DNA of 64,000 bases from Ruminococcus sp. (GTDB lineage Bacteria; Bacillota; Clostridia; Oscillospirales; Acutalibacteraceae), in NCBI GenBank assembly GCA_022768065.1, contig JALELS010000002.1, forward strand, positions 1-64,000. The letters are read 5' to 3'. Every line of letters begins with the position of its first letter. Within the stretch, counting starts at the first letter, position 1. The translations under genes were made by a program, and so were the position numbers. Shown one piece after another: positions 181-44,927 of this stretch. Under the pieces are notes generated by a model. That model saw only the letters and a list, made by a program, of their open reading frames with translations, was not told the DNA's origin and ran no database searches.

Positions 181-223
181 CCAAAAAGAAACAGTCACCA
201 AAACGGTGACTGTTTCTTTTTGG
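181..223 (-). terminator. Intrinsic terminator of tRNA-Trp, overlapping the encoded CCA
   Basis: The arms are a perfect 19-bp inverted repeat around a 5-nt loop (AAAAC). The arm nearest the tRNA begins in the encoded CCA end, and both arms are bounded by A/T runs, so it can terminate in both directions. It also forms the exact boundary with the DUF4417 fragment. Confidence 0.85.
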
Positions 224-296
224 CAGGGGCAGAAGGACTTGAACCCTCGGCACGCGGTTTTGGAGACCGCTGCTCTACCAACTGAGCTATACCCCT
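221..296 (-). tRNA. tRNA-Trp (anticodon CCA)
   Basis: The minus strand folds into a full cloverleaf. The acceptor AGGGGTA pairs with TGCCCCT, the D-arm contains AGCTCAGTTGGTAGAGC, the anticodon stem GCGGT/ACCGC carries loop CTCCAAA, and the T-loop is TTCAAGT. The 3' CCA is encoded. The anticodon is CCA, which reads UGG. The gene is 76 nt including CCA. Confidence 0.95.
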
Positions 297-430
297 ATAT
301 TAAATTCTTCCTTGCGGAAACCACTTAGCTATTATACATATATTGCATCATTTTGTCAACAAAAATTCTTGCAAAATGTTTTTCCGAAACTATATTTTTA
401 AAAGGCTTTTTAAGTTTCGTATGCAAAAAA

Positions 431-460
431 TAAAGCCGATACCGTTTGGTATCGGCTTTA
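431..460 (-). terminator. Intrinsic terminator of the CAU tRNA
   Basis: Perfect 13-bp arms (TAAAGCCGATACC and its complement) surround a GTTT loop. On the minus strand the hairpin is followed by a T-rich run, directly 3' of the tRNA. Confidence 0.85.
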
Positions 461-465
461 TTTTA

Positions 466-542
466 TGGTGGACCATCAGGGACTCGAACCCCGGACCGCC
501 CGGTTATGAGCCGGATGCTCTAACCAACTGAGCTAATGGTCC
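466..542 (-). tRNA. tRNA with anticodon CAT (Met elongator or Ile2)
   Basis: The cloverleaf has acceptor GGACCAT/ATGGTCC, D-arm AGCTCAGTTGGTTAGAGC, anticodon loop CTCATAA, T-loop TTCGAGT and an encoded CCA. The anticodon CAT fits either elongator tRNA-Met or the tRNA-Ile2 whose C34 is converted to lysidine by TilS. The GGACC acceptor resembles Firmicutes Ile2, but I cannot settle the identity from sequence alone. It is not an initiator, because the first acceptor pair is a normal G-C. Confidence 0.88.
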
Positions 543-41754: not shown

Positions 41755-42528
41755 TCAATTACCGCATTCAATGCTTATCTTATTAAATATTTCGAGGATA
41801 TCGTCTATCGACGTATTCTTTTTATCCTCACCCGCCTTGTCAAGTATGATATTTCCCCTGTCCATCATAACAAGGCGTGTGCCGTACTCCACGGCATAGC
41901 GCAGATTGTGAGTTACCATAACAGCCGTCAGTTTTTTCTGCTTAACCACCTTATCGGTAAGCTCCATAATTATTTCCGCGGTCTTTGGGTCAAGTGCGGC
42001 GGTGTGCTCATCAAGGATAAGAAAGTCTATCGGGGTTAATGTTGCCATAATAAGTGAAACCGCCTGACGCTGACCGCCCGACAGCGAGCCCATTTTCACG
42101 TGCAATTTATCCTCAAGTCCGAGGCCGAGCGACGCGAGCTGCTCACGGTAAAAATCATACCGTTTTTTATTGAGCGCAAACGATAAGCCGAAGGGTTTAC
42201 CCTTATTGTCGGCAAGGGACATATTTTCGAGTATTGTCATATTCGGGCAATTGCCCATCGAGGGATTTTGGTACACTCTGCCGATATAGGCATAGCGTTC
42301 AAAATCTTTTTTCTTATTCACGCATTTACCGTTTATAAGAACTTCGCCTGCGTTTACGGGTATACTGCCGCATATTATATTTAGCATGGAGGTTTTTCCG
42401 CTGCCGTTTGAGCCTATTACGGAGACGAACTCACCGTCATTTACGGTAAAATTAAAATCGTCGAAAAGGCACATCTCCGTTACGAGTCCGGGATTATATA
42501 TTTTTGAAATATGCTTAAGCTCTAACAT
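41755..42528 (-). CDS. ABC transporter ATP-binding protein, tryptophan transporter (TrpZ-like)
   Basis: This 257-residue ATPase has Walker A IGSNGSGKTSMLN, signature LSGGQRQAVSLIMA, Walker B FLILDEHTAALDPK and an H-loop in MVTHNLRYAVEYG. The Walker B continuation DEHTAALDP is typical of the small group that pairs with two-domain permeases of this family. The Trp T-box upstream indicates tryptophan as substrate. It overlaps the permease gene by 14 bases. Confidence 0.9.
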   Translation of the reverse strand: MLELKHISKIYNPGLVTEMCLFDDFNFTVNDGEFVSVIGSNGSGKTSMLNIICGSIPVNAGEVLINGKCVNKKKDFERYAYIGRVYQNPSMGNCPNMTILENMSLADNKGKPFGLSFALNKKRYDFYREQLASLGLGLEDKLHVKMGSLSGGQRQAVSLIMATLTPIDFLILDEHTAALDPKTAEIIMELTDKVVKQKKLTAVMVTHNLRYAVEYGTRLVMMDRGNIILDKAGEDKKNTSIDDILEIFNKISIECGN

Positions 42529-43408
42529 TTTTCTTCACCGAACCTTTCTGGAAATTGCCGAGGACAAGTATAAGCAAGAACAAAACAGCCGTAATGAGTT
42601 TTAAGAGATTAGCCGGCAAGCCGAGGCTTATTGCAATTTGTATGCACGCTTTATAAATTACGCTGCCGAATATTACGGCGGTGGTACCCTTTATAAAGCT
42701 TACGCGCCTGAAAAGCGTTGTTCCTATAATTACCGCAGCGAGACCGAATACTATCTGACCGGTTCCCATTGTAGCGGAAAACGAGCGCTGTTCCTGACAG
42801 GCAACGGCACCTGAGAGAGCCACAAGAGCGTTTGATATTACAAGTCCGATTATTTTGATTCTGCCCTTGTCCTTTGAGAGAGAGGTAACAAGCACGCTGT
42901 TATCGCCTACCGCACGAAGTAAAAATCCGTTTTTCGTCTTAAAGTAAAGGTCAAGAAGCACCTTGCAGACTATCATTATAATTGCGGAAACGATAAGTTT
43001 TCTTAAAATAAGCGACATCGAGCCGAAAACAGACATTGTAACGGGCGACGTGAACACGGTGTCGATTTCACGTGCGATTGAGAGGTTTGAACCGGCTATC
43101 TGAAGATTTATGGAAAACAAGGCCGTCATTGTAATAATACCCGAAAGCAGGTCGCGTACCTTTAAGCGGACGTGAATAAATCCCGTGACAAATCCGGCAA
43201 GAGCTCCGACAAGAAGCGATACTAAAAGCGAGAGAAAAGGGTTTACGCCCTTCACCAGCAAAACAGCCGTTACGGCAGCTCCCAAAGGGAAGCTGCCGTC
43301 CACGGTAAGGTCGGGGAAATCCAATATTTTATATGTTATGTACACGCCGAAAGAAAGCAGGGCGTATATAAAGCCTTGAGTTAATGTGCTTATAATAAGA
43401 TCAAGCAT
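42515..43408 (-). CDS. ABC transporter permease, tryptophan transporter (TrpY-like)
   Basis: This 297-residue membrane protein has eight to nine helices and belongs to the BPD_transp_2 (branched-chain/ribose-type) permeases. It carries ILDFPDLTVDGSFPLGAAV near residue 30 and the EAA-like region GIITMTALFSINLQIAGSNL. It forms the channel for the substrate delivered by the binding protein encoded upstream, 14 bases away, in the same T-box-controlled transcript. Confidence 0.9.
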   Translation of the reverse strand: MLDLIISTLTQGFIYALLSFGVYITYKILDFPDLTVDGSFPLGAAVTAVLLVKGVNPFLSLLVSLLVGALAGFVTGFIHVRLKVRDLLSGIITMTALFSINLQIAGSNLSIAREIDTVFTSPVTMSVFGSMSLILRKLIVSAIIMIVCKVLLDLYFKTKNGFLLRAVGDNSVLVTSLSKDKGRIKIIGLVISNALVALSGAVACQEQRSFSATMGTGQIVFGLAAVIIGTTLFRRVSFIKGTTAVIFGSVIYKACIQIAISLGLPANLLKLITAVLFLLILVLGNFQKGSVKKNVRA

Positions 43409-43422
43409 TCTTTTACACTACC

Positions 43423-44388
43423 TTATTTACATTCTATTGCCTTTGCGGCTACATCCGACGGAACGGTAATTCCCATAGCTGTTGCGGCGTCGGAATTTAT
43501 ATATGTGTTATACTCCGTTACGGTTTCGTACGGAAGATCGGATGCCTTGGCTTCGCCCTTTAAAATCTCAGCAGCAAGCTTACCTGCCATTTTACCGAGC
43601 TCTATATAATCGATACCGGCAGACGCCACACAGCCTTTTTTAACCTGCTCAATTTCGCTGCCGTATACGGGAATACCTGCGGCGTTTGTCTTTTCAAGTA
43701 TTGACGGAAGAACGCCTACAACATTATTGTCGGTAAGATTTGTAATGCAATCTACATTTTTGTTTATAAGAGTATCGGCAGCCTGTGTAACGGACGCCTG
43801 GTCCGCAACGCCTATTGCCTCAATGGTAAATCCGTAGTTACCTGCTTTTTCTTTATACTCGGCAATTGCTGATACTGAATTCGGTTCGCTTGTGGTATAT
43901 ATAATTCCGATTGTTTTGGCATCCGGCTGAAGCTTTCTTATAAGCTCAAGCTGAGGGTCTACGGGGAGTTTATCGGAAACGCCCGTTATGTTGCCTGTTG
44001 TGAGACCGGCTTCACCGGGGTCTGTTATGGCGTTGAATACAACGGGAATGTTTTTATCCTCTGCCGCGGCGTAACAAGCGGTTGCCGAGGGAGTGGCTAT
44101 TGCGCACATGAGCGCGACGTTTTTGGAAGAGAAGTTATTTGCTATCTGTGTTGCGGTAGCATTGTCAAAGGAGGCGTTCTGATAATCTATTGTGTAATCC
44201 TTGCCCTCTGTGAGCCCTGCCTCTTTAAGTCCGAGCAGGAAGCCCTCACGGCAATTGTCAAGCGAAGCGTGCTCGCCGTACTGACTTATGCCTATTACCG
44301 GAACCTTATCTTTTTTTGCCGTACAGCCTACAAAGAACAATGTTATTGCCGCTAAAATTACCGCTACTGTTATTTTTATTTTTTTCAT
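43423..44388 (-). CDS. Tryptophan ABC transporter substrate-binding lipoprotein (TrpX-like)
   Basis: This 321-residue protein has a lipoprotein signal (hydrophobic helix ending LFFVGC, Cys near residue 22). The two-lobed binding protein then begins PVIGISQYGEHASLDNCREG and includes VTGVSDKLPVDPQLELIR and the hinge YTTSEPNSVSA. The family is COG2984, in which the Trp-T-box-linked members are called TrpX. Ligand specificity rests on the leader RNA rather than on binding residues that I can verify. It is the first structural gene after the leader. An AAGGAG site precedes the ATG. Confidence 0.88.
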   Translation of the reverse strand: MKKIKITVAVILAAITLFFVGCTAKKDKVPVIGISQYGEHASLDNCREGFLLGLKEAGLTEGKDYTIDYQNASFDNATATQIANNFSSKNVALMCAIATPSATACYAAAEDKNIPVVFNAITDPGEAGLTTGNITGVSDKLPVDPQLELIRKLQPDAKTIGIIYTTSEPNSVSAIAEYKEKAGNYGFTIEAIGVADQASVTQAADTLINKNVDCITNLTDNNVVGVLPSILEKTNAAGIPVYGSEIEQVKKGCVASAGIDYIELGKMAGKLAAEILKGEAKASDLPYETVTEYNTYINSDAATAMGITVPSDVAAKAIECK

Positions 44389-44433
44389 GATGACAATCTC
44401 CTTAATTTTAAAATATAAATCGGTATATAATGA

Positions 44434-44481
44434 TTATAAATTTAAAAGTCGCCATCGCCATCGTCTTAAATAATGTTTCAT
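44434..44481 (-). CDS. Trp-containing leader peptide of the trpXYZ operon
   Basis: A 15-codon ORF, MKHYLRRWRWRLLNL, follows the T-box terminator with AAGGAG seven bases before its ATG and ends 45 bases before trpX. Two of its fifteen codons are TGG, for the rarest amino acid, in an Arg-rich run. The T-box before it also senses Trp. This recalls the Trp-codon leader peptide behind the T-box of the B. subtilis at (rtpA) operon. The peptide probably senses charged tRNA-Trp by ribosome stalling. An AU-only imperfect hairpin between the peptide and the trpX ribosome binding site might be the target, but it is weak. Confidence 0.7.
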   Translation of the reverse strand: MKHYLRRWRWRLLNL

Positions 44482-44502
44482 TCTTTTCTCCTTAGAAGCA
44501 AA

Positions 44503-44762
44503 TAAAAAAAGCCTTATCCCATATATGGGACAAGACTTTGAATCCTGCGGTACCACCCAAATTGCCGGAAAAACCGACCGCTCGTTTCTTATACTGACAT
44601 ATAAGCCGCTCTGATAACGGGTACGGAACCCGTCGGCCGCTACTCACAAACGCTTTCGTGCCGCCCTCATAAGTCCATTCACTGTACTCTCCCCTGCGGT
44701 ATTTCCACCGACAACCGCTCTCTGCAAGCTTTGAGTAAAGCTACTCTTCTTAATCACAGGTT
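44503..44762 (-). promoter_or_regulatory. T-box riboswitch, tryptophan-specific (specifier TGG)
   Basis: The minus strand holds the T-box core GGGTGGTACCGCAGG (around 44543-44558), the K-turn AGAGAG, the apical GGTGGAAATACC, and the specifier region GTGAATGGACTT with TGG at 44675-44677. The terminator AAGTCTTGTCCCAT/ATGGGATAAGGCTT followed by TTTTTT occupies 44503-44538. Uncharged tRNA-Trp would pair with TGG and with the T-box bulge, favouring the antiterminator and expression of the transporter. Upstream TTGACA (44804-44809) has a weak -10 about 18 bases later. Confidence 0.93.
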
Positions 44763-44927
44763 TTTTAGATGTTGGGATTATGTTATCACGGTGTTCTTTT
44801 TTTTGTCAAGAAAAAATTTGCAATTTATTCATATATTATCAATTTTGCGTCAAAACTCCTTATGATTGTACAAATCCCGAAAATATGTTTTATTTTGCGG
44901 AATATTTAAATAAATGCAGGTCTAATC

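Follow-up and report, generated by a model that had tools for sequence, protein, structure and literature searches.

A tryptophan T-box followed by a CGA-UGG leader frame precedes tryptophan genes of many Clostridia and suggests a two-step tryptophan sensor

In a 64,000-nucleotide stretch of a Ruminococcus sp. genome (GenBank GCA_022768065.1, contig JALELS010000002.1, positions 1 to 64,000; hereafter the window), a trpX-like operon is preceded by a tryptophan T-box and, past the T-box terminator, by a short open reading frame (ORF) in which a Trp codon directly follows the arginine codon CGA. Many Clostridia have the same pair of elements ahead of tryptophan genes, and this recurrence suggests that two-step sensing of tryptophan is widespread. 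At the first step, uncharged tRNA-Trp would let transcription past the T-box terminator; at the second, when Trp-tRNA is scarce, a ribosome would wait at CGA-UGG of the leader ORF, usually at codon 8, and raise expression of the next gene, while a ribosome that passes fast would not. By this second gate, leaky read-through of the T-box would not be converted to protein. From the arrangement of the sequences we infer the stall at the Trp codon, the sign of its effect and its route, and we hold this two-step reading of the locus to be fairly probable.

The features of the locus are collected in Table 1. A sequence-only reading of the window had proposed a complete T-box with a TGG specifier, and this was borne out: the leader scored 111.2 bits with Rfam, above the gathering score, UGG was aligned at the specifier place and an intrinsic terminator lies past the core. 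The same reading had described, past this terminator, a 15-codon ORF with its own AAGGAG and two Trp codons, as is indeed found: the AAGGAG begins fourteen bases past the terminator stem, the Trp codons lie at 44460-44458 and 44454-44452 (minus strand), and a second CGA-TGG copy follows the first in frame. A short Trp ORF with a Shine-Dalgarno (SD) site thus lies between the T-box terminator and the gene, the arrangement of the rtpA tandem. CGA accounts for 44 of the 597 Arg codons in the long frames of the window. A promoter-like site adjoins the T-box upstream; such sites number 4 in the region and 3.0 in shuffled sequences.

Table 1. Features of the trpX-like locus, in coordinates of the window
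Feature	Position	Strand	Basis or remark
Promoter-like site TTGACA-18-TAACAT	44780..44809	minus	consensus match only
Trp T-box leader (Rfam RF00230)	44523..44766	minus	111.2 bits vs gathering score 93
Specifier codon UGG, context GAA-UGG-AC	44675..44677	minus	at specifier place in Rfam alignment
T-box core GGGUGGUACCGC of antiterminator	44547..44558	minus	sequence
Intrinsic terminator stem of T-box, then T-run	44508..44539	minus	
Shine-Dalgarno AAGGAG of leader ORF	44488..44493	minus	sequence
Leader ORF MKHYLRRWRWRLLNL, 15 codons + stop	44434..44481	minus	sequence and relatives
Core CGA-TGG-CG, codons 7-9 (Trp = codon 8)	44456..44463	minus	
Shine-Dalgarno AAGGAG of trpX-like gene	44398..44403	minus	pairs with stretch past second Trp codon in predicted fold
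trpX-like substrate-binding protein (PF04392, ABC_sub_bind)	43423..44388	minus	
Permease (BPD_transp_2), trpY-like	42515..43408	minus	
ATPase (ABC_tran), trpZ-like	41755..42528	minus	

The only NCBIfam match of the binding protein is TrpX, at 242.9 bits, which falls short of the 390-bit cut-off; we therefore keep to the cautious name "trpX-like". The substrate of the operon is likely tryptophan and its role likely tryptophan uptake. The window also contains genes for tRNA-Trp (CCA) and tRNA-Met (221-542, minus strand). Its genome encodes a further homologue of the binding protein (G000:C23:70951-72206, locus L117; 33% identity) behind another T-box, which at 91.2 bits narrowly misses the cut-off and is followed by no Trp ORF.

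Recurrence of the leader was assessed in a sample of 80 loci among the matches listed for trpX homologues, taken regardless of leader; 3 had too little upstream DNA, and with the window added 78 were judged. A T-box was present in 51 of the 78 loci, and 31 of these 51 carried past the T-box core an ORF with an ATG, an SD site and an in-frame CGA-TGG; among the other 20, no further ATG-SD ORF had Trp at any of codons 4-20. The sequence-only reading had asked whether relatives conserve the ORF with its Trp codons against a background of drift; in this unselected sample the outcome is positive, with the ORF retained in 31 of the 51 T-box loci, although 20 lack it. Two further loci (L040 and L084) have both an Rfam T-box and the ORF. 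T-box calls in the locus counts were made with a short pattern; when Rfam was run on 20 loci, the T-box was above the gathering score in 12, and a rerun of 7 of the remaining 8 at a lax threshold found it in 6, so that the T-boxes of L194 and L101 were unconfirmed by Rfam among these 20.

Three pattern searches were also made. The order search (SD, ATG, 15 bases, CGATGGCG; 394 genomes) returned 50 places in 48 genomes, against 6 with a reversed control; among the 42 of these 50 places that were read, a T-box core was upstream in 29 and absent in 13. The class search (391 genomes), in which the Arg codon 7 was left free and in whose draw the window and some others recur, returned 26 places against 13 with the reversed control: here a T-box was upstream of 14 of the 15 places with CGA (window included) and of 0 of the 11 with other codons. 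The phylum search (348 genomes) returned 19 places against 7 for its control; T-box cores in L196, L197, L198 and L204, all outside the class, appear genuine, and the leader element seems to be rare beyond the class.

How these places may be read depends on the patterns. All three fix codon 8 as Trp and require CG in codon 9. The order and phylum searches also require CGA as codon 7, whereas the class search leaves that codon open (MGN) and requires Lys or Arg as codon 6. Therefore codon-8 Trp, CGA and CG in the 43 pattern-found leaders are no evidence, and the evidence for the features of the motif comes only from the unselected trpX sample (30-31 leaders) and from the free codon 7 of the class search. 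An SD site was likewise a condition for the collected leaders, and its presence there is not independent evidence. The collection gave 84 rows for 78 loci, and the final set comprised 73 leaders, 30 trpX-sampled and 43 pattern-found. Left out were L122 (the window), L186, L192 and L198 (second copies of L169, L180 and L081) and L194, which is without an Rfam T-box and resembles a match inside a gene; L040, L042 and L084 carry the ORF and failed the collection filters. A TGG specifier candidate was present by a loose pattern in 68 of the 73 leaders, and UGG stands at the specifier place in the Rfam alignments of the window, L128, L182 and L144.

Behind the 43 pattern-found leaders lie 23 trpB-like genes, 13 trpX-like genes, one TrpB-like gene, one ECF S component and 5 uncalled genes; behind the 30 trpX-sampled leaders, 27 genes were called trpX (by way of sampling) and 3 were uncalled. 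The trpB of L137 scored 525 bits with TIGR00263 (cut-off 392), and the gene product of L126 exceeds the cut-off of the TrpB-like family. The ECF-type S component (L144, 1583-2080), whose substrate is perhaps Trp or a related compound, stands behind the same leader and a T-box that scored 88.1 bits at the lax threshold. Judged by its relatives, the ORF of the window is not a chance frame, and the series of T-box and Trp leader peptide first noticed in this one leader is supported by the comparison.

In the trpX sample, which was unselected by leader, Trp was codon 8 in 25 of 30 leaders; the outliers had it at positions 7, 7, 7, 4 and 18, all in frame with the start. The typical peptide consists of M, three mostly hydrophobic residues, Thr/Ser/Gly and Lys/Arg/Phe, then R-W-R. 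Codon 9 was Arg in 26 of the 30, and across the 73 leaders it was CGA in 26, CGT in 17, CGC in 13, CGG in 13, TGT in 2, TGC in 1 and CAA in 1, its third base having been unconstrained in every search. Of 66 distinct leaders, 43 have Leu at codon 4, where column shuffles gave a mean of 31.5 (0 of 2000 shuffles reached the observed count); in the trpX sample the count was 12 of 25, against 8.1 (9 of 2000). Synonymous change was frequent at codons 4 and 5. The peptide was less well conserved in the trpX sample, where codon 3 did not reach significance (177 of 2000 shuffles) and codons 3 and 6 showed less synonymous change than expected. At codons 4 and 5 the peptide is thus moderately conserved.

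Drift was compared in 7 hand-picked pairs of relatives, all with the motif. The T-box part was 77-96% identical and codons 2-6 were 56-100% identical, while in the 6 measurable pairs the interval from ORF to gene was 40-83% and the SD with gene start 66-100% identical; the core was 88-100% identical, partly through selection of the pairs. Between the window and L031, identity was 85% in the T-box part, 56% in codons 2-6, 100% in the core and 58% in the interval. The interval between Trp codon and gene SD contained 20% C and 12% G, against 12% C and 18% G in 43 control upstream regions (not genome-matched); a ribosome at codon 8 would sit upstream of this C-rich interval and leave it exposed.

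Several other explanations of the ORF were weighed against the two-step reading. In the B. subtilis anti-TRAP operon, the leader peptide rtpLP has about ten codons, three of them for Trp, with a stop close to the SD site, and by the rtpA rule the terminating ribosome covers the next SD site, while starvation stops it earlier. The sequence-only reading had carried the logic of that operon over to the window, as direct control of a transporter with two-step sensing of uncharged tRNA-Trp. The order of parts is identical (UGG T-box, terminator, short Trp ORF with SD, gene), yet the window has 45 nt between the stop and the ATG of the trpX-like gene (44388) and 30 nt between the stop and the SD of that gene. 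Among 64 loci, the stop-to-gene distance ranges from 79 nt to overlap (4 nt in 7 loci and 26 nt in one), with the stop codon unconserved. Because the position of the stop codon varies freely, the rtpA rule does not apply; that part of the earlier proposal was not borne out, and we give an exact rtpLP-type device little probability. In L134, no stop closes the leader ORF ahead of the trpX-like gene; the ORF continues in frame into the gene, which has its own SD. The usual role of Trp leader peptides, as in E. coli trpL, is transcription attenuation, in which the ORF would control a second terminator ahead of the gene. A terminator-like site between ORF start and gene was present in only 2 of 65 loci (L070 and L147), none was listed between ORF and gene in the window, and 52 of 73 loci have such a site in the 100 nt just before the ORF. 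With 63 of 65 loci lacking it, a second terminator past the ORF was rejected; by sequence, classical attenuation is largely excluded, and we give it hardly any credence. A small protein acting in trans would account for the SD site and the partly conserved N-terminal part, but past codon 9 neither length nor sequence is conserved (9 to 45 residues, plus one read-through), and its chances seem to us very slim.

Two explanations concern the motif itself. The nascent peptide might arrest the ribosome in the manner of TnaC or the macrolide leaders, sensing free tryptophan or another ligand, with Trp needed as a residue. The amino acids at codons 4 and 5 are conserved through synonymous change, in keeping with such arrest, and R-W-R resembles the Arg-Leu-Arg of a uORF before hflX and antibiotic leader peptides, as the available text of PMC8632094 describes them. 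Yet behind a T-box the Arg codon before Trp is always CGA where it was left free, which a purely peptide-based signal would not need, and a stall at high tryptophan would have to repress, whereas at least 37 nt separate the Trp codon from the gene SD downstream; we consider peptide arrest unlikely. Alternatively, CGAUGGCG could serve as an RNA target of a protein or small RNA, with the ORF incidental, as CGATGG is common to the 31 ORFs of the trpX sample. Against this, the frame from the SD-bearing start is kept with Trp at positions 4, 7, 8 and 18, second CGATGG copies occur in frame in 5 loci and in the other two frames in 0 and 0, and synonymous changes prevail at codons 4 and 5. The full complement CGCCATCG occurred in 0 of 73 leaders and shorter parts of it in 0 or 1 of 73, which bears only on a partner within the leader. 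An RNA site is thus, in our estimate, quite improbable.

Relatives with TRAP offer a further comparison. Four trpX loci (L034, L037, L041 and L058) have a T-box and no ORF. Their last 75 nt before the gene contain 8, 10, 8 and 4 UAG/GAG triplets respectively, against 0 to 5 in the other loci, among which L058 is not exceptional. The genomes of all four have a TRAP gene. The presence of TRAP alone is not decisive, because the ORF-bearing loci L039, L042, L043 and L048 (four tested genomes) have it as well. TRAP (PF02081) was not found in the genome of the window, which is 96.81% complete, nor in those of L031, L046 and L050. A TRAP-like site of UAG/GAG repeats seems to replace the ORF in L034, L037 and L041 and, more weakly, in L058, as if a second Trp-responsive element were wanted at the place behind the T-box. 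TRAP site and ORF would then be two unlike devices for one task at an equivalent place.

Under the two-step reading, the waiting ribosome could act by two routes. By the one, a ribosome at codon 8 would cover about codons 2-12 and release the next SD from pairing with them; by the other, it would protect the RNA from decay. Protection, which needs no geometry, would fit the variable spacing. For SD release, the predicted fold of the window has GAUGGCGACUUUU, which holds the second Trp codon, paired with the SD and with the bases that lead up to the trpX start; this stretch would be covered by a ribosome waiting at codon 8 or 10, and the predicted accessibility of the gene SD rises on stalling from 0.32 to 0.63. 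A predicted gain above 0.25 was obtained in 8 of 64 loci (the window and 7 others), and the mean gain over the 64 was 0.067, against 0.032 in shuffles (t = 2.0). As a rule the gene SD was not hidden: its predicted accessibility averaged 0.50, and 0.53 in shuffles. Mean release was equal for a ribosome at the stop and at the Trp codon (0.55 and 0.56, 52 loci), and the fold of the window did not surpass shuffles in stability (z = -0.31). Between the Trp region and the gene start, cognate partners paired only slightly better than permuted ones (-4.66 vs -4.34, sd 0.15); for SD plus ORF, the values were -8.66 for cognate and -8.26 for permuted partners (sd 0.29). Predicted pairing of codons 2-6 with the SD surpassed plain shuffles (t = -3.4) and did not go beyond synonymous-codon shuffles (t = -0.7). 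Hiding of the SD by codons 2-6 is strong in L036, L038, L068 and L197; as a general device it was rejected, being overall not beyond what the peptide imposes. By these predictions, SD opening is possible in some loci and unproven in most. The overlaps of ORF and gene and the read-through of L134 would also permit coupling of the opposite sign.

CGA is read in bacteria through inosine and decoded slowly. A tentative extension of the two-step reading, which we would not put beyond a minority chance, sees in CGA-UGG-CGN (codons 7-9) a cassette made for stalling, in which the P-site CGA, the A-site Trp codon and the charged R-W-R peptide would jointly heighten sensitivity to a small fall in Trp-tRNA. 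Such leaders might then form a class of tRNA-charging sensors that need no terminator or dedicated RNA fold and, across Clostridia, provide a second gate downstream of T-boxes. According to the available part of PMC11805395, decoding of CGA-CGA pairs in the his leader of Salmonella is slow; no test of CGA-UGG was found there.

The order of parts of the anti-TRAP operon recurs ahead of uptake and synthesis genes in many Clostridia, with CGA before UGG fixed where the search left that codon free. Trp T-boxes of such bacteria may have to be read as often two gates, not one. Moreover, the dozens of natural leaders provide a set for testing codon context against ribosome stalling under amino-acid limitation.

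To our knowledge, a T-box and a Trp leader peptide in series have one precedent, the anti-TRAP operon of B. subtilis, and a full-text search of the literature found, in the passages it covered, no report of a T-box with a CGA-UGG Trp leader. In the erm translational attenuators, a ribosome stalled in a short ORF frees the start site of the next gene. The leader described here would differ from these attenuators, which are named in the available text of PMC11264731, in that a hungry codon and not a drug is the proposed signal and a hiding stem is predicted in a minority of loci. In Streptococcus suis, trpX is under control of a Trp T-box with Trp-dependent expression (PMC9382623, available text); a UGG T-box and terminator before trpXYZ are common to both, and no leader peptide is mentioned in that text. 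Tandem T-boxes before trp operons of Bacillota (PMC12452182, available text) are likewise two Trp sensors in series, but both are T-boxes there, and neither "leader peptide" nor "uORF" occurs in the main text of that paper. The trpB motif SRC-39-1, which Firmicutes and Fusobacteria have ahead of trpB and of an amino-acid-type ABC transporter, is described as at least two hairpins with terminator and antiterminator, with 0 occurrences of "T box", in the available text of PMC11109978; compared by description and without alignment, it might overlap the Clostridia leader. The nearest likeness is to the B. subtilis at operon, in which a tRNA-Trp T-box is followed by translational control via tRNA-dependent ribosome stalling (PMC11255114, available text, citing Chen and Yanofsky 2003 and 2004). 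The Clostridia leaders share this succession, with stalling proposed here from sequence. On the other hand, they precede transport and synthesis genes directly instead of anti-TRAP, the gene in the window being trpX-like and its genome without a TRAP match; and unlike rtpLP, they usually have one Trp codon, in CGA-UGG context and mostly at codon 8, with the spacing from stop to SD free.
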